DNA of 64,000 bases, from assembly GCA_021651055.1 (NCBI GenBank), contig JAJHOH010000001.1, positions 2,046,001 to 2,110,000 on the forward strand, in the 5' to 3' direction. The notes below the pieces were generated by a model, which worked only from the letters and a program-made list of their open reading frames with translations, was not told where the DNA came from and made no database searches. The DNA is from Candidatus Manganitrophus morganii (GTDB taxonomy: Bacteria; Nitrospirota; Nitrospiria; SBBL01; Manganitrophaceae). The position numbers and the translations under genes are program-made. This document shows positions 54,309 through 61,418 of this stretch, one piece after another; position 1 is the stretch's first letter, and each line of letters opens with the position of its first letter.

Positions 54309-54385
54309 TGATTTCGTGTATGAGGTCATCGGAAATACCAGCAGCAGGCTTGGCCTGTCCGAGCATTTATAGAACAAGCGAGCAT

Positions 54386-54448
54386 CCGGCTTTGCCGGTG
54401 CAAGCGTTCGGGGCGTGGGGGCATCGGAGGATTCCCGCGAAGCGGGAA
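54386..54448. repeat. Two short palindromes between smpB and ssrA
   Basis: CCGGCTTTGCCGG at 54386-54398 and TTCCCGCGAAGCGGGAA at 54432-54448. The second has the same core as the dispersed repeat at 9327-9392. No gene lies in this 164-bp gap. Confidence 0.6.
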
Positions 54449-54472
54449 CCGCACGGGCCCCCACATACAATA

Positions 54473-54819
54473 GGGGGCGATCGGATTCGACGGGGATAAA
54501 GAGGTTAAGGAACGCATGCCGAGGTCCCATTGGGCTCGTTAAACAAATGGGAAAAACATAATTGCTAATGAACAATTAGCTCTCGCTGCCTAAACGCAGT
54601 GACATCGACTTTCCGTCGCCTGTGCGGGGGGAAGATGCCAGATAGCAGGCTGGCCTGACTCTTCGCCTTGGGGAGTTGGGTGAGATCTTTCGAGGCTAGC
54701 GGAAGAGGGAGCCTGTCTCTGGGCGACCTTGGACGCGAACTCCAAAATAGAGACTAAGCATGTAGTGTTCTTTTTCTGAATATCTTCGGACGCGGGTTCA
54801 ATTCCCGCCGCCTCCACCA
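54473..54819 (+). ncRNA. ssrA: Transfer-messenger RNA (tmRNA)
   Basis: The 347-nt RNA starts GGGGGCGATCGGATTCGACG and ends in a tRNA-like TGGTTCAA-type arm (GGGTTCAATTCCCGCC) and CCTCCACCA with an encoded CCA. The 5' GGGGGCG pairs with 3' CGCCTCC to form the acceptor stem. The tag frame begins at GCT 54564 and ends at TAA 54591-54593, reading A-N-E-Q-L-A-L-A-A. It rescues stalled ribosomes with SmpB and marks proteins for proteolysis. The AT-richer gene block starts right after its 3' end, a common integration site. Confidence 0.97.
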
Positions 54820-54824
54820 ATTTG

Positions 54825-54857
54825 AAGAGCCCGGGTAACTGGGCTTTTCCTTTTTTA
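54825..54857 (+). terminator. Terminator of ssrA
   Basis: AGAGCCC and GGGCTTTT pair around GGGTAACT, followed by CCTTTTTT, just behind the tmRNA 3' end. Confidence 0.75.
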
Positions 54858-54931
54858 GGAAGCCCCGCCCGCTCCTCCTCCCGACTCAATCACGGAACTC
54901 CGGCCAGTCTGATCGGTGGGTGGTGACGTCA

Positions 54932-54960
54932 TTGACTTCCTTCAGATCCTCGTTTAAAGT
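54932..54960 (+). promoter_or_regulatory. Candidate promoter of the PurZ-like operon
   Basis: TTGACT (54932-54937), 17-nt spacer, TAAAGT (54955-54960), with the first gene beginning about 36 nt downstream. A second weak -10-like GATAAT is at 54966-54971. Confidence 0.4.
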
Positions 54961-54995
54961 GTCCCGATAATATCACCAACAGTTATATTTTTTGT

Positions 54996-56708
54996 TTGAC
55001 AGAAAGGCCAAAATCCCGCTATTCTTCCCTTAACAAACACCCGGTTGGATTAAGCCTGTTCCAGTCAATTTGGCTCAGAGGGAACTTGGCTGTTGAGAAA
55101 GAAATAATTCATTCCAAGGGAGCACTCCCTACCCTCGATTCTATCCTCCCCCGAACATTTGTCCATGTTCCTGGGATTGGTCCCATAAAAGAAAAGTCTC
55201 TCTGGAAAGACGGGATCACCTCCTGGCAACAATATCTTAATCTCTCCAGACAAATGGAATTTTCTTTTCGCCTTCCAAACACGACGTATGACCTCATCGC
55301 GCAATCAGAAGAAGCCCTGAAAAAAGAAGATGCGGAATTTTTCAGAGACCACCTTCCGCGTGAAGAATGGTGGAGGCTGTTTCCGCATTTTGAGTCACGA
55401 ACAGTGTTTCTGGATATCGAAACCACTGGTCTGTCCCACTACTATGATGAGATTACGCTTTTGGGTTTGTATGGCGGTGAATCCAATAAGATGCGGGTGT
55501 TCCTGTCCGGACACAATCTCGATCAGATTTCGGACATATTGAGTCGCTATTCTATTGTGGTCACTTTTAACGGAACTCTTTTTGACCTTCCCTTTCTGAA
55601 AACGAAATTTCCGTCGCTAAGACTCCCTCCAATTCACTTAGATCTTCGTTACATACTTAAGCGGTTAGGATATGCAGGAGGGTTAAAACAAATTGAAGAA
55701 ACACTAGGACTGCAACGCAGTAAGAAGATTTCTTCAATTGATGGTCTTGGTGCGACCGTGCTCTGGGCACGTTATGTCAGAGGCGAGATCCAAGCGCTAG
55801 AACACCTCATTCGCTACAATGCGGCGGACATTACGAGTTTGCAGACACTATTACGGTTTAGCTATAAGCAGTTGGCAGCCCGTCTTTTAAATGGTGCGAG
55901 TAGCCAACCCTTCCAACCGCGTTTGCAGCGTCCAAAGAAAGTCTATATTCAAGTAAAAAGGGTCAATGGCTCGCGTGTTCAGATCGTGGTTGACCGTGTA
56001 AAGACCCTTCTAAAATTTAAAAAAATAGAGAAGCCGCTAATCACCGTTAATGATCTTTTGAAGAAGATATCTGGTAGTAAGAATCTTATGCCCAGAGCGA
56101 TTGGAATTGACCTGCGAGCGTCCGAAATCCGCCCGACGGGTTGGGCCTTGCTTGATGGTAATACTGCGGACACGAAGCTGGTTAGAACAGATGAACAGAT
56201 TATTACCGAGACAGTTCGCTATCACCCCGATATCATCTCGATTGATTCTCCCCTGAGTTTGCCGACGGGACGTTGTTGCACAAAAGACTCGTGCAAGTGC
56301 CGAGAAAAAGGTATTTTGAGGGAGTGCGAGCGGACACTCTGGAGAAGAGGAGTCAGAGTCTTTCCATGTCTATTACCTAGCATGCAGGGTCTCACTGAAC
56401 GCGGGATACGTCTTGCTGAAAAATTCAGAAAGCTCGGTTACAATGTTATTGAGAGCTATCCGGGGGCAGCCCAGGATATCATGAGGATCCCAAGAAAGAA
56501 ATTAAGCTTAGGCGATCTAGGGTTGGGATTGAGCGCTTTCGGCATCGAAGGGGATTTTCTTTCGAAGGAAGCAAGCCATGATGAGTTGGATGCGATTACA
56601 TCGGCCGTTGTCGGCTACTTCTACCTCTCAGGAGACTACGAGGCGCTTGGAAATGATTCTGAAGAATACTTGATCATCCCAAAACTAGACCGATCTTTAT
56701 CCCAGTAG
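54996..56708 (+). CDS. Fusion of YprB-type DEDDy exonuclease and DUF429 RNase H-like domain
   Basis: The 570-residue protein joins two nuclease folds. Residues about 50-290: helix-hairpin-like FVHVPGIGPIKEKSLWKDGI, then a DEDDy exonuclease with D140 and E142 (FLDIETTGL), D197 (FNGTLFDLPF) and Y274/D278 (YNAADITSL), as in YprB. Residues about 366-550: DUF429 predicted RNase H-like domain with D372 (AIGIDLRAS), D417 (SIDSPLSLP), E486 (ESYPG) and HDELDA (528-533). A Cys cluster C427, C428, C433, C435 may bind zinc. The start is probably TTG 54996 but is not certain. It is 16 nt ahead of the PurZ-like gene. AT-richer than the flanks. Confidence 0.85.
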   Translation: MTERPKSRYSSLNKHPVGLSLFQSIWLRGNLAVEKEIIHSKGALPTLDSILPRTFVHVPGIGPIKEKSLWKDGITSWQQYLNLSRQMEFSFRLPNTTYDLIAQSEEALKKEDAEFFRDHLPREEWWRLFPHFESRTVFLDIETTGLSHYYDEITLLGLYGGESNKMRVFLSGHNLDQISDILSRYSIVVTFNGTLFDLPFLKTKFPSLRLPPIHLDLRYILKRLGYAGGLKQIEETLGLQRSKKISSIDGLGATVLWARYVRGEIQALEHLIRYNAADITSLQTLLRFSYKQLAARLLNGASSQPFQPRLQRPKKVYIQVKRVNGSRVQIVVDRVKTLLKFKKIEKPLITVNDLLKKISGSKNLMPRAIGIDLRASEIRPTGWALLDGNTADTKLVRTDEQIITETVRYHPDIISIDSPLSLPTGRCCTKDSCKCREKGILRECERTLWRRGVRVFPCLLPSMQGLTERGIRLAEKFRKLGYNVIESYPGAAQDIMRIPRKKLSLGDLGLGLSAFGIEGDFLSKEASHDELDAITSAVVGYFYLSGDYEALGNDSEEYLIIPKLDRSLSQ

Positions 56709-56724
56709 CTCTGTTCAGGAATCC

Positions 56725-57756
56725 ATGCCTCTTACGGTTGTAGTTGGCGGACAATTCGGTTCCGAAGGCAAGGGGAAGATCGTTTCCTACCTTGCCCTGC
56801 GGGACAATGTAGACATTGTAGTCCGTTGTGGTGGACCCAACTCAGGCCATACCGTCGATTATCGCGGACAGCGATACGAGCTTCGAAGCCTGCCAGCCGG
56901 GTTTATCAATCAACGAACCCGTCTTCTCCTTGCTGCAGGTTCACTCATCAATCCTGAGATTCTACTGACCGAAATAAAAATTGCGGGGATTGATCCTCAA
57001 AGGGTGGGGGTCGATCGAAACGCAGGGATCATCTCCTCTCTCCAAAGCGAAGAAGAACGGTCACTCTCTCTGAGAGATCGGCTGGGATCAACTTTGTCCG
57101 GAACCGGAAGCGGCGTTGCGAACCGTGCGCTCAGAAAACCTGATTTTAAGCTGGCGAAGGACAGTCTAGAATTACAGGGTTTCCTAACAGATGTTTCAGA
57201 AGAGGTGAACGGCGCGCTAGATAGGGATGGGAAGGTTATCATTGAAGGTACACAGGGTTTTGGCCTGTCGGTGTACCACTCATCGCATTATCCTTATGCG
57301 ACCAGTCGCGATACTACTGCAAGCGGGTTTCTAAGTGAAGTAGGTGTTAGTCCCCGGCTCGTTACCGATATTATAATGGCAGTTCGGACCTATCCAATCC
57401 GCGTGGCAGGTAATTCAGGACCTCTGGCCAAGGAGGTCACATGGGAAGAAATTCAGAGAAGAAGCGGTTACCCTACGGAAATCAAGGAGTATACGACAAC
57501 CACTAAAAAACTCCGGCGAGTGGGACTTTTTGACATAGAACAAGTAAAAAGAGCGGCAAGAGTTAATCGGCCGACCCAAATTGCACTGCATGGAGCAGAT
57601 TACCTATCATATACAAACAAATCAAAGACAGAACTTGATAACCTATGCATAGAAAGTCAAAAGTTTATCGCATTCGTGGAGAGAGAGACTAAGACACATG
57701 TGAGTTTTATTGGTACGGGCCCGGCCAACGAAGAGATTATAGATCTAACACTATGA
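56725..57756 (+). CDS. PurZ-like adenylosuccinate synthetase homologue
   Basis: The 343-residue protein is a PurA-fold GTPase/ligase but about 90 residues shorter than PurA (~430). Family motifs: VVVGGQFGSEGKGKIVSYLA (8-17 region), GGPNSGHTV with His42, SGTGSGVANRALR, EGTQGFGLSV with HYPYATSRDTT, and KKLRRVGLFD. The catalytic Asp of PurA (GDEGKG) is Ser13 (GSEGKG), the change I associate with phage PurZ, which makes N6-succino-2-amino-dAMP from dGMP for 2-aminoadenine DNA. Residues and length thus favour a PurZ or PurZ0-like enzyme over housekeeping purA. It overlaps the next gene by ATGA. Substrate is inferred only. Confidence 0.82.
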   Translation: MPLTVVVGGQFGSEGKGKIVSYLALRDNVDIVVRCGGPNSGHTVDYRGQRYELRSLPAGFINQRTRLLLAAGSLINPEILLTEIKIAGIDPQRVGVDRNAGIISSLQSEEERSLSLRDRLGSTLSGTGSGVANRALRKPDFKLAKDSLELQGFLTDVSEEVNGALDRDGKVIIEGTQGFGLSVYHSSHYPYATSRDTTASGFLSEVGVSPRLVTDIIMAVRTYPIRVAGNSGPLAKEVTWEEIQRRSGYPTEIKEYTTTTKKLRRVGLFDIEQVKRAARVNRPTQIALHGADYLSYTNKSKTELDNLCIESQKFIAFVERETKTHVSFIGTGPANEEIIDLTL

Positions 57757-58790
57757 GTCAACCAAGAAATATACTTCCAGATAGTTATAAACAACCAGCG
57801 CCAACCGTATCAGAGAAGGATTTTTGGGTAGATCCAGATCCAAAATCCACGGGGCTTTTACTTTCAGATCGAATAATATTTTATCGAGAGAAAGTGAATT
57901 TGATTCATCCTTTCGATCTCAATTATGTCGAGCCTGCATCATATACGCTTCATGCGGGGGGAGAGTATCTAATCTATACCGAGGGGAAAAAAAGAGTATC
58001 GGGAATTTTAGACGAAGGTAAATTAGAAATTGAGATACCTCCAAATGGATTAATCTATATTCGGTTTATGGAATATGTGAATATACCAGCCTATATGATT
58101 GCGAGATTTAATTTACGAGTTAAACAAGTTTACCGAGGGCTACTTTTAGGAACTGGTCCTCAAGTGGAGCCCGGCTTTAGAGGGCATCTTGGCTGTCCTA
58201 TTCATAATTTTACAGATGAGGCAAAAACTATTAGGTTTTTTGAACCCATCGTTACGATTGATTTTGAGAAAACTACCCCTTTTGGCGAAAATTTCTTTAG
58301 CGGTAAAAAGGATGAGGAATTAACTAACGAGATGTTTCAGCGAATACCCCGTGGTATGATCACAGTTACCGGGCTAAACGACCTTCCTTGCAAAGTCTTT
58401 ACGAAGAATAGTCCAGATAGATCGCTTCAAAATTACTTGCCGCCTGGAGAGAGTGTTCGCAGCTCCGTGTTCGAATTAGAACAAACTGTCAGGAGGGTCA
58501 AAGAGACTGTTCGTCGGTTCGAGATTATAATTTCAATTGGTGCCCTTGCCCTACTTGTCGCCATGGCTGGACTTTTCTTTAATGCTTATTCAAATTTAAA
58601 GAATGACATTGTTACGTTAAGTAAGTCGGTTGGAATTCTGGAAGGAGCAGCAGGGGCGGCACGAACGAACTCATCCGCAGCAGTTCAGCCTAATACCCAA
58701 GTTGCATCGCCAACTTCTCCACCAGCAAAAAGCCAGCAATCCTCTCCACCACTCCGGGATAACACCTCAACTACTGAAAGTCCGAAGTAA
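57753..58790 (+). CDS. Membrane-anchored dCTP deaminase/dUTPase-fold protein, probably inactive
   Basis: Residues about 40-175 follow the DCD/dUTPase fold: NYVEPASYTLHAGGEYL, PPNGLIYIRFMEYVNIPAYMIARF, then PQVEPGFRGHLGCPIHNFT. In active DCD the last segment carries the catalytic Glu (..LEFYN/LELSN); here that position is Pro149 (GCPIHN), so deamination is unlikely. Residues 232-255 look coiled-coil, a membrane helix covers about 257-278 (EIIISIGALALLVAMAGLFF), and the tail is Pro/Ser/Thr-rich. It may be a nucleotide sensor fixed to the membrane. ATGA overlap with the PurZ-like gene shows coupled translation. Confidence 0.82.
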   Translation: MSQPRNILPDSYKQPAPTVSEKDFWVDPDPKSTGLLLSDRIIFYREKVNLIHPFDLNYVEPASYTLHAGGEYLIYTEGKKRVSGILDEGKLEIEIPPNGLIYIRFMEYVNIPAYMIARFNLRVKQVYRGLLLGTGPQVEPGFRGHLGCPIHNFTDEAKTIRFFEPIVTIDFEKTTPFGENFFSGKKDEELTNEMFQRIPRGMITVTGLNDLPCKVFTKNSPDRSLQNYLPPGESVRSSVFELEQTVRRVKETVRRFEIIISIGALALLVAMAGLFFNAYSNLKNDIVTLSKSVGILEGAAGAARTNSSAAVQPNTQVASPTSPPAKSQQSSPPLRDNTSTTESPK

Positions 58791-58804
58791 CTTAATAAAA
58801 CATA

Positions 58805-59431
58805 ATGATTAGAGACATAGAAAAACTAAATACTTATAGATTTCTATCCATTGAAGGTTGTATGGGTTCAGGTAAGACAACTCTTGCAAAACATTTAGCG
58901 GATGCCATTTTAGCTAGCCCGCTCATTGAAGAGAGCGGTCGTCATCCTTTCATCAAAGAGTTCTATGTGGCGCCTGAATCTTATGCAGTTGAAACCGAGA
59001 TTGCTTTTGTTCTGCTGCACTACCATCAAATTCTTCGAGAGAAGCGGGCTGGACTATTCAATGGGACAGTCGTGAGTGACTTTGCTATGGACAGAGATTA
59101 TATATTTTCAACCCTTACCCTAAAAGATCCCGCGGATTGGGAACTGTTCGAAAACACATATAATGTTTTGAAGAAACGGCTTCCTATTCCCGATATACTA
59201 ATTTATCTTAGGGCGCCAGTGGATTTTTTAGCAAAGCGGATAGCACAACGCGGAAGGGATTATGAGAAAATTATGACGCGAAGCTATCTTGAAGCGGTAA
59301 AGACAGCCCTCGACAATTACTTTCTCAAAGAATATAAGGGGAAGATCATTATTCTTGATGCCCCGGACCTGGACAGTTCTGTTAATCCCACCTACGTTGA
59401 TACAGTCATCAAGCAGTTACATATAAGTTAA
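58805..59431 (+). CDS. Deoxynucleoside kinase (dGK/dAK-type)
   Basis: The 208-residue protein has the P-loop SIEGCMGSGKTTLAKHLA (Gly18-Thr25), a conserved FYVAPESY-type segment, SDFAMDRDYIF in place of the DRS/ERS motif, and the lid RIAQRGRDYEKI. The pattern and size match the deoxyadenosine/deoxyguanosine kinases of the dNK family. It would make dNMPs from deoxynucleosides, possibly feeding or recycling the product or substrate of the PurZ-like enzyme. It starts 14 nt after the preceding gene and ends the operon. Confidence 0.85.
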   Translation: MIRDIEKLNTYRFLSIEGCMGSGKTTLAKHLADAILASPLIEESGRHPFIKEFYVAPESYAVETEIAFVLLHYHQILREKRAGLFNGTVVSDFAMDRDYIFSTLTLKDPADWELFENTYNVLKKRLPIPDILIYLRAPVDFLAKRIAQRGRDYEKIMTRSYLEAVKTALDNYFLKEYKGKIIILDAPDLDSSVNPTYVDTVIKQLHIS

Positions 59432-59444
59432 CAACTCAGTTGCG

Positions 59445-60842
59445 TTATCCTGCTCCAGCCCTACGGATTTGATCAGGGCTAATTACTAAACGACCGTTTT
59501 TTCGTTCAGTGTAGGGGATTTTATCCTGCTCTAGTCCAAACCACCCGTACAATTCTGAGATAAGGTCAAATGCCACAATACCTGGGTCTAAGTCGGTGCT
59601 CCTTTTCGTAATGGTCACTTGAGAATCCGGAGCGTTGCGGATATCCGTTCCGAATTCCCACCCAAATGTGCCTATCGGACCTGGGATAAGCCCACAAGGC
59701 ATCCCATCTCGTGTCATGTTAAGTAACTCCAGTCGATATTCAATGCTTTGGGGATGCGGCTGAGCGTTTGCTGAAACCTGCCTGTTCAGTTCAGCAAATA
59801 AATATGTAGATTCAGCCAGGACAAGAGGATTAATACGAAGCGCACCGCGAGGCCTTCCCCAGCTTAAGAATTCCTCATCTCCTCGGGTGGCAAAGATGAG
59901 CGTTCCATTTCGCCACAGATCAAGAATTCGATATTTAGGATTTACCGCTCGTCTAAGTTGACCCCTTACGATCTTTGGTGTCTCACCGATAGTCAAATCG
60001 AATCCGCTTGGTCTCAGTTCCGGCGGATTTTTAAGTAAACGCACAATCTCCGCATCACTTGCCTGAAAGAGCGTTGGTATATCGACTGCTTCGATAGGTG
60101 TTGCCGCAAGGATGAAAATTGGTTGCGTCTGGAGGTCTACTGCAATCAGTGCTTCATTTCTTCGATCGTCTAATAATTCTTGTATATTCTGTTGAAGAGT
60201 AATATTTGCTTTCTGAGACTGGCCCGCCATAAGCTGCTGTAGTGTTTCTTGAATTTCGTTATATTTCTTGTCTAGGGAGTCAAACCGGAGACCATCCCTT
60301 ATTAAGGAATGTAGTTCTTGAACTGACGTCGGCGGTATATTGTCTCGCCTGCGTTCGACATAACCAAATACGATTTCGATTTGCTTGCCCCTGCTATCAA
60401 TGGTTCGGGTTATCAAGAAAGGGCGTCTGGTGGAGGCTTGAGAGGGAACATGAATAGCAACGACTCCCTTCTCTTTATCGGCACCGGAGGGAAACCAGCG
60501 AATATCAACCTGCTGCAAAGGTGGATAGATCCAAGACTGGAGGATTTTATGGTATTGGTCTTGGTTCACTAAGCTCTGTATAAAAGGATTGACCGTTGTA
60601 ATTTCATCTCCAAGGTGCGTAGGATGCCGCTCTGTCTTAACCCCTAAGAGAACAAAACCTCCATCGGCGTTCGCAAGTCCGGATATATCCTTGGCAAACT
60701 CTTGTTTCTGATGATCTTGTCCAATCTGATAGGGTGCGTCTTTACATTCCAGTTGTGCATCCTCTACAGTTCCAATAAATTTATTAAAATCACCAGAATC
60801 CAAAAGAGACCGGATCTCATTTAAACTGAGATTTTTAGGCAT
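59445..60842 (-). CDS. AlbA_2/Schlafen-type ATP-binding domain protein
   Basis: The 465-residue protein has an N-terminal AlbA_2 (Schlafen-like) domain with QLECKDA (about 30), EFAKDISGLANADGGFVLLGV (49-69 region) and an acidic/basic middle. The C-terminal ~280 residues match nothing I recognise and may sense a target. AlbA_2 domains occur in transcription regulators and in several anti-phage systems. It is convergent with the PurZ-like operon, 13 nt from the dNK stop, and has the same AT-richer composition. AAAGGAA is upstream of the ATG. Whether it belongs to the operon's function is unknown. Confidence 0.82.
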   Translation of the reverse strand: MPKNLSLNEIRSLLDSGDFNKFIGTVEDAQLECKDAPYQIGQDHQKQEFAKDISGLANADGGFVLLGVKTERHPTHLGDEITTVNPFIQSLVNQDQYHKILQSWIYPPLQQVDIRWFPSGADKEKGVVAIHVPSQASTRRPFLITRTIDSRGKQIEIVFGYVERRRDNIPPTSVQELHSLIRDGLRFDSLDKKYNEIQETLQQLMAGQSQKANITLQQNIQELLDDRRNEALIAVDLQTQPIFILAATPIEAVDIPTLFQASDAEIVRLLKNPPELRPSGFDLTIGETPKIVRGQLRRAVNPKYRILDLWRNGTLIFATRGDEEFLSWGRPRGALRINPLVLAESTYLFAELNRQVSANAQPHPQSIEYRLELLNMTRDGMPCGLIPGPIGTFGWEFGTDIRNAPDSQVTITKRSTDLDPGIVAFDLISELYGWFGLEQDKIPYTERKNGRLVISPDQIRRAGAG

Positions 60843-60893
60843 CGATAATTTCCTTTGGTTTAGACTTTGTTACCGCCTTAATGCTGATCGCCG

Positions 60894-61418
60894 CTATAGG
60901 CTGGCGGTCGTCTGGTGCCGGATCGGACGGAACAGGGCCTTATCAAGACCCGATTCAAAATCCAGCAGCGCCCGTTTCCGATCGAGGCCGCCGGCGTATC
61001 CGGTGAGGGCCCCGTCGCGGCCGACGACCCGATGGCAGGGGACGATCAGCGAAATCGGATTGCGTCCTGTCGCCGCGCCGACGGCGCGCATGCTCGATGG
61101 CGCGCCGATCCGGGCTGCCAGCACCGAGTAGCTTTGCGTCGCGCCGAACGGAATCGCCGCGATTGCCTGCCAGACCCGGAGTTGAAAGGGGGTTCCTTTG
61201 AACCGGATCGGCAGATTAAACGTTTTCAGTTTTCCCGAGGTGTAGGCGGCGATCTGGGCCTCGGCGTCGCGAAACAGTGGGAGTCCCGGATCTCGCTTCC
61301 AAGGGGTTGCGTCCGGGGCATACTTCTGACCGACGAAATAGAAGCCGGTGAGTACAGCGCCGTCCGAGACCAACAGGATCGGCCCCAGCGGCGAATCAAT
61401 ATCGGTATAGAGGTTCAT
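60894..61418 (-). CDS. ogt: Methylated-DNA--protein-cysteine methyltransferase
   Basis: The 174-residue protein removes alkyl groups from O6-methylguanine onto its own Cys. The active site is LIVPCHRVVGRDGALTGYAGG, and RVWQAIAAIPFGATQSY marks the DNA-binding helix region. Length and arrangement are of the Ogt/Ada C-terminal type. The ATG at 61418 follows AGGGG; a slightly earlier ATG would overlap the preceding cupin gene. It marks the return to GC-rich core sequence after the AT-richer block. Confidence 0.93.
   Translation of the reverse strand: MNLYTDIDSPLGPILLVSDGAVLTGFYFVGQKYAPDATPWKRDPGLPLFRDAEAQIAAYTSGKLKTFNLPIRFKGTPFQLRVWQAIAAIPFGATQSYSVLAARIGAPSSMRAVGAATGRNPISLIVPCHRVVGRDGALTGYAGGLDRKRALLDFESGLDKALFRPIRHQTTASL

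Follow-up and report, generated by a model that had tools for sequence, protein, structure and literature searches.

In Kongming (KomABC), a nucleotide enzyme and kinases make non-canonical dITP as an immune signal (PMC12948488), and defensive dCTP deaminases, dGTPases and Clover (CloA/CloB) exert defence via the deoxynucleotide pool (PMC12265719). In the literature covered, PurZ is described as a phage enzyme for 2-aminoadenine DNA, with four archaeal relatives; all phage PurZ have Ser at the site of the catalytic Asp of PurA, the four archaeal relatives have Ser or Gly, and 99% of PurA have Asp (PMC12884076). Roles have been described for S23 and T273 of S-2L PurZ, the loop threonine contacting the aspartate (PMC8342488).

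The locus analyzed here places a PurZ-type gene directly beside a gene for a protein of the dCTP deaminase (DCD) fold with a predicted membrane helix, which we call DCD-TM. It lies in a stretch of 64,000 nucleotides from Candidatus Manganitrophus morganii (contig JAJHOH010000001.1, positions 2,046,001 to 2,110,000), referred to below as the window, and all positions are those of the window. DCD-TM is almost certainly a membrane protein without deaminase function that belongs to a genuine cassette, and the features on which the argument turns are as follows.

54473..54819, + strand: tmRNA gene (ssrA), with the island at its 3' end
54824..60940, no strand assigned: genomic island of ~6.1 kb, G+C ~0.44 vs ~0.60 in its surroundings, missing from three congeners
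54996..56708, + strand: protein of 570 aa, RNase_H_2 (DEDD-type exonuclease-like) plus DUF429 (RNase-H-fold)
56725..57756, + strand: PurZ-type adenylosuccinate-synthetase homologue, 343 aa, with Ser13 for Asp and Thr257 for Gly
57753..58790, + strand: DCD-TM, 345 aa, DCD/dUTPase fold with Pro replacing the catalytic Glu, a single predicted membrane helix and a disordered tail at the C-terminus
57852..58277, + strand: DCD-fold core of DCD-TM, residues ~34-175, from the AlphaFold2 model and structural alignment ranges
58197..58199, + strand: codon of Pro149, which stands where E. coli DCD has its catalytic Glu138
58521..58586, + strand: single predicted membrane helix of DCD-TM, residues ~257-278, N-terminus inside by the positive-inside rule
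58805..59431, + strand: deoxynucleoside kinase / thymidylate kinase-like protein, 208 aa
59445..60842, - strand: protein with a Schlafen AlbA_2 domain, also in the island and oriented towards the cassette

Fold, active site and membrane helix of DCD-TM

Residues ~36-183 of DCD-TM match the dCTP deaminase family in Pfam (DCD, PF22769, E 9e-8), in NCBIfam (the equivalog model TIGR02274, E 7e-10, far under the model cut-off) and in PHROGs (dCTP deaminase, 3.5e-9). Searching PDB sequences with phmmer returns DCD-type proteins, the best of them an archaeal DCD-type dUTPase. The AlphaFold2 model, built with 69 family sequences, has a mean pLDDT of 83 and a confident DCD core above 90, followed by a long helix at 238-307 and then a disordered tail. 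In the PDB its fold comes closest to dCTP deaminases and DCD-type dUTPases, with Z of 15-18.6, the best match being the archaeal DCD-type dUTPase of Thermococcus pacificus (8y1w, Z 18.6); E. coli DCD (1xs1) superposes with Z 17.0 and rmsd 2.6 over 164, and a Foldseek search of BFVD gives chiefly dUTPase and DCD matches. The first-pass annotation, made from the letters of the window, had proposed a DCD/dUTPase fold, and both the family matches and the superposition on DCDs agree with it.

The family was gathered by a scan with a five-sequence alignment, which yielded 85 relatives, 80 of them kept, with genome titles spanning at least 14 phyla; a scan of genome contigs with the single DCD-TM sequence found no relatives. 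Most weak matches in the phylum profile search came from coiled coils aligned to profile positions 230-340, and we left them out. No match to phages was obtained by tblastn with DCD-TM, and viral contigs hold only five distant DCD-TM-like proteins, all without PurZ. A wider DCD-type set occurs on viral contigs (L091-L095) and plasmids (L006, L007), not beside PurZ; its proteins mostly have a C-terminal membrane helix and carry Ser, Thr, Met or Gly where the Glu would be, and on the two plasmids the gene lies behind a conserved gene of 166-174 aa.

When DCD-TM is aligned to PDB chains by phmmer, Pro149 falls at the site of the catalytic Glu, and it does so again in a joint alignment of 84 DCD-TM family members with four intact DCDs of this and related genomes, in which the DCDs read 'TLEISN' and the window copy 'GCPIHN'. 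The proline is not there by chance, because it is invariant in 84 of 84 aligned family members. At the site of catalytic Ser111 (E. coli numbering) DCD-TM has V123, with Ile or Val in 98% of the family, and at that of Arg115 (same numbering) it has Y127, with His or Tyr in the family. With these phosphate- and sugar-binding residues gone, any nucleotide binding must be remodelled. What is invariant or nearly so in the family is a different set, namely R118, F119-N120-L121, G129, L131, G133-T134-G135-P136, P140-G141, H151 and N152, which together with the proline gives the new motif RFNL...RG.L.GTGP..DPGF.G....P.HN.T. The loss of the deaminase residues combined with this new invariant set indicates that the site has been replaced by another fixed motif rather than by random decay. 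As for the dUTPase motifs, the Asp128 position, which is the motif III catalytic Asp of DCD-type dUTPases, is Glu139 in the window copy and Asp in 96% of the family, the Arg-Ser-Ser of motif II reads R-V-K in the window copy and x-I-x in the family, and the motif I Asp of dUTPases is Glu or Thr.

The substitution of Pro149 for the catalytic Glu, which the first-pass annotation had read from the window, is therefore upheld by the PDB-chain and joint alignments. The annotation had named a catalytic Glu elsewhere in the active site as one observation that would overturn its reading; in the joint alignment no Glu is relocated there, E139 standing at the Asp128 position, and a shifted catalytic Glu was rejected on this ground. 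A functional deaminase was rejected as well, the deaminase residues being replaced.

The single membrane helix and the disordered tail of the same annotation were also recovered. Hydropathy places the helix of the window copy at residues 258-276, and a hydrophobic 19-mer is found in 77 of 80 full-length members, at a median of 104 residues after the proline, compared with 8% of shuffled tails. Lysine and arginine are in excess on the DCD side of the helix in 71 of those 77 members, so the DCD domain should be cytosolic. The C-terminal tail is of low confidence, with pLDDT below 50 at 307-330 and 342-345.

The cassette and its genomic setting

The ATG of DCD-TM overlaps the stop of the upstream PurZ-type gene (ATGA), and both lie in a same-strand run (54996-59431) whose other gaps are ~15 bases. 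The conserved gene order across loci is a double RNase-H-fold nuclease, the PurA-like enzyme, DCD-TM, and a fourth gene for a deoxynucleoside kinase, a protein of RlmJ fold or a NUDIX protein. A PurZ-type gene is present within five genes of DCD-TM in 78 of 83 non-duplicate loci, and in 63 of the 83 it is directly upstream on the same strand; a nuclease gene is nearby in 67, the deoxynucleoside kinase in 23 and a ~250-aa protein of RlmJ-like fold in 26, the latter two occurring together in only 2. Among 396 Nitrospirota genomes the identical five carry PurZ-type and DCD-TM genes, adjacent in all five. The core of the first-pass reading, a membrane-anchored and deaminase-dead nucleotide-enzyme fold tied to its neighbours, is strongly supported by the proline, the motif, the helix and the 78 loci with a PurZ-type gene; the PurZ-type identity of the neighbour, the island and the breadth of the cassette were not part of it.

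The nuclease protein has RNase_H_2 in 62 of 65 cases and PHP with HhH in the remaining three. DUF429 follows the nuclease domain, a C-terminal P-loop kinase domain is fused in 55 of the 65, and the DEDD-type Asp/Glu and DUF429 acidic residues are nearly invariant among cassette nucleases. The window copy is without the fused kinase, and a separate kinase gene is present. The three cassettes with HhH-PHP in place of RNase_H_2 are L030, L054 and L063, two of them from Bacteroidota, and in three loci from same-class genomes (L008-L010) the fourth gene is NUDIX-like rather than a kinase. The RlmJ-fold partner (L020:10247-10993 and 25 other loci) has the pattern 'MQNRYVGDxGDF...DPDNG...YHH' and no Pfam or NCBIfam match; its AlphaFold2 model (pLDDT 92) has an RlmJ-like methyltransferase fold (Z 11.5), it alternates with the deoxynucleoside kinase, and a profile comparison with true RlmJ gave nothing. 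True RlmJ genes lie within a few genes of ~10 cassettes (L016, L017, L031, L069 and others), making up 9 of 122 sampled neighbours, which may reflect either an insertion hotspot or a functional link.

The nearest solved structures to the PurZ-type protein are archaeal PurA and phage PurZ. At the catalytic Asp13 site of PurA the cassette sequences have Ser in 93% and Gly in 6%, and at Thr257 of the aspartate loop, which corresponds to S-2L Thr273, 94% have Thr; in all, seven positions (S13, E111, S122, R221, I225, W240 and T257) distinguish the cassette enzymes and phage PurZ from PurA. The window protein scores 236 bits with the NCBIfam PurZ model vs a cut-off of 300 (relatives 215-255), and the cassette proteins are also under the archaeal PurA cut-off of 368 bits. 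In a tree, most of them stand apart from sampled phage PurZ. The PurZ-type proteins of two actinomycetotal loci (L039, L040) branch near PurA, and that of L040 is fused to a P-loop kinase. The cassette 'PurA' likely has PurZ-type chemistry, and the diagnostic residues indicate that its product is probably an N6-succino-2-aminoadenine (succino-2-aminopurine) nucleotide, ribo or deoxy. The host keeps an intact DCD and its own full PurA (G000 C1:25421-26674), and on account of the latter we rejected the PurZ-type protein as its only adenylosuccinate synthetase.

The cassette occupies an island of low G+C. G+C drops from ~0.60 to 0.44 across 54.8-60.9 kb, and in each of three congeners sequence matching the window from 60941 or 60952 onward begins 48-73 bases after the end of the tmRNA gene, which defines an empty site. 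Besides the four-gene cassette run, the island contains a single Schlafen AlbA_2 gene, which may be another defence gene; no convincing att repeats were found at the island, and it contains no integrase. Just before the tmRNA gene, window positions ~54376-54473 match many places of ~50-100 bases in each genome of the genus at 71-92% identity, a dispersed small repeat.

The tree of PurZ-type proteins mixes phyla, and close relatives lie on rhizobial plasmids. Proteins neighbouring other cassettes matched 166 PADLOC models, among them type I restriction and AAA/DUF4143, vs 7 in a control of random Nitrospirota stretches, an enrichment we take as moderate evidence because the control is taxonomically narrow and models rather than proteins are counted. 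Beside the window cassette itself there is only the Schlafen-like gene. On a Sinorhizobium plasmid (L005:8464-10809), genes resembling E1/JAB/E2 ubiquitin-like conjugation, recognized by eye, lie on the other strand after the PurZ/DCD-TM pair, and a UvrD helicase also follows the pair.

Proposed function and competing explanations

The best reading of the sequence evidence is that DCD-TM would bind a nucleotide and respond to the product of its neighbours. That the ligand is the product of the PurZ-type enzyme, with DCD-TM as its receptor, we consider slightly the better wager, and a role of the cassette in phage defence seems somewhat more probable than that. The defence reading is favoured because of the patchy transfer, the tree of mixed phyla, the tmRNA island with its empty sites and the PADLOC-rich neighbours. 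For the main lines of a fuller model, a nucleotide-signalling abortive-infection system with DCD-TM as membrane receptor and effector, we would give even chances.

In such a system the RNase-H-fold nuclease, or the PHP domain that replaces it, would act on phage DNA or sense infection and free nucleotides such as (d)GMP. The PurZ-type ligase, judged by its diagnostic residues, would join aspartate to a guanine nucleotide to give an N6-succino-2-aminoadenine nucleotide, a compound that should be absent from the uninfected cell, and the fused P-loop kinase, the deoxynucleoside kinase or both would phosphorylate it. The DCD scaffold, through the new invariant motif in its pocket region, would bind the ligand in the cytosol, and the assembly, probably trimeric, would, by way of its membrane helices, cause membrane damage or cell arrest. 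Where present, NUDIX or HD-type partners might conceivably clear the signal. The exact chain, in which a succino-2-aminopurine second messenger is read by a trimeric dead DCD-fold protein that opens or disrupts the membrane, is tentative and, taken in all its particulars, less likely than not.

Several observations could be accommodated if DCD-TM were still an enzyme, a membrane-anchored dUTPase-like protein or dNTP diphosphohydrolase that trims or eliminates the cassette nucleotide and so remodels the pool instead of signalling. The protein of closest fold, 8y1w, also lacks the Glu and has Met there, 96% of the family retain the dUTPase-type Asp of 'VDPG', and DutZ of Z-phages shows that a dUTPase fold can shift to dATP/dGTP (PMC12884076). 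However, in the window copy this Asp is replaced by Glu, the Asp of motif I has become Glu or Thr and the Ser-Ser pair of motif II is gone; moreover, a pool enzyme would not need a strictly conserved membrane helix, and we regard residual enzymatic function as unlikely. A metabolic or natural-product operon that yields a modified purine nucleotide, in which DCD-TM would serve as membrane scaffold and phages would play no part, appears marginally less probable again: nuclease domains, patchy transfer, the tmRNA island, plasmids and restriction-rich neighbourhoods all argue against it, and export or tailoring genes are not conserved, although every partner has a nucleotide-metabolism fold and modification of the product by the methyltransferase-like partner of RlmJ fold is conceivable.

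The resemblance of the PurZ-type enzyme, the kinases and the occasional HD or NUDIX partners to Z-phage gene sets (PMC12884076) might instead mean that the cassette targets 2-aminoadenine (Z)-genome phages or modified nucleotides, making or detecting Z-type nucleotides as a decoy or cue. This is improbable to a further degree, given a distribution over at least 14 phyla that is far wider than known Z-phages, the absence of an accompanying DpoZ, MazZ or DatZ set, and a tree that sets cassette PurZ apart from sampled phage PurZ. Least probable is a stabilizing module of toxin-antitoxin-like or plasmid-competition type with DCD-TM as the toxin; copies do occur on plasmids and near ParA or resolvase genes, yet the module would comprise three or four enzymes with no conserved antitoxin-like small protein, and most copies are on long contigs without signs of a plasmid.

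Comparison with known systems

The fold of DCD-TM over residues 34-233 is common to dCTP deaminase and DCD-DUT enzymes (E. coli Dcd, M. jannaschii DCD-DUT), with which it also has the framework residues N98, P112, G129, P140, G144 and N152 in common. It differs from DCD enzymes in the change of Glu to Pro (100%), of Ser to Ile or Val and of Arg to His or Tyr, and in the added membrane helix and coiled-coil or disordered tail. Nearest in both sequence and fold is the archaeal DCD-type dUTPase (Thermococcus pacificus 8y1w; P45, 9ln0), which has Met for the deaminase Glu; unlike DCD-TM it is 155 aa long, has no membrane helix, and keeps the Arg-Ser-Ser motif and the motif I Asp. The defensive dCTP deaminases, dGTPases and Clover effectors are active enzymes, whereas DCD-TM lacks the deaminase residues. 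The membrane effectors of CBASS and Pycsar, in which a nucleotide-receptor domain in the cytosol is attached to a membrane helix, offer a possible parallel in design, but in the cassette the receptor fold would be that of DCD, and no Pfam domain of a CBASS or Pycsar nucleotidyltransferase or cyclase was found in the cassette genes scanned.

In idea the cassette has a precedent in Kongming, since in both the signal would be a non-canonical nucleotide, produced by a nucleotide-metabolism enzyme with kinases and read by a further protein, with the difference that the receptor here would be at the membrane. The components of Kongming, which we take to be of adenosine-deaminase, HAM1 and SIR2 type, have no counterpart among the Pfam domains of the cassette proteins scanned. 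With PADLOC 2.0 models, the PurZ-type protein and DCD-TM gave no match at E 0.1, and the kinase and DUF429 gave weak matches only. DefensePredictor lists a predicted 'dUTPase' defence domain, and its text does not mention this cassette. No description of the cassette was found in the literature covered, a 2015 nucleotide-centric survey in which an earlier prediction is possible being outside that coverage. The cassette is most likely an undescribed nucleotide-signalling defence system, and to our knowledge no known immune system uses a succino-2-aminopurine-type signal or a DCD receptor fold.

The cassette enzyme is like phage PurZ and PurZ0 (succino-aminodeoxyadenylate synthetase) in the Ser at the Asp13 site, the Thr of the aspartate loop and five further residues. 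Of the Z-genome cluster genes DpoZ, DatZ and MazZ, none is conserved in cassette neighbourhoods, and a YfbR-like HD gene is near the cassette in only 3 rhizobial-type loci. In contrast to phage PurZ, which belongs to Z-genome phages, the cassette enzymes occur on bacterial chromosomes and plasmids, in company with a DCD protein of the membrane. That mobile cassettes in at least 14 bacterial phyla encode PurZ-type enzymes beside this dead DCD protein points to a candidate chemical signal and receptor fold, and it bears on the origin of Z-DNA metabolism: if the proposed function is true, Z-genome phages would have taken PurZ from an enzyme pool that also serves bacterial signalling.
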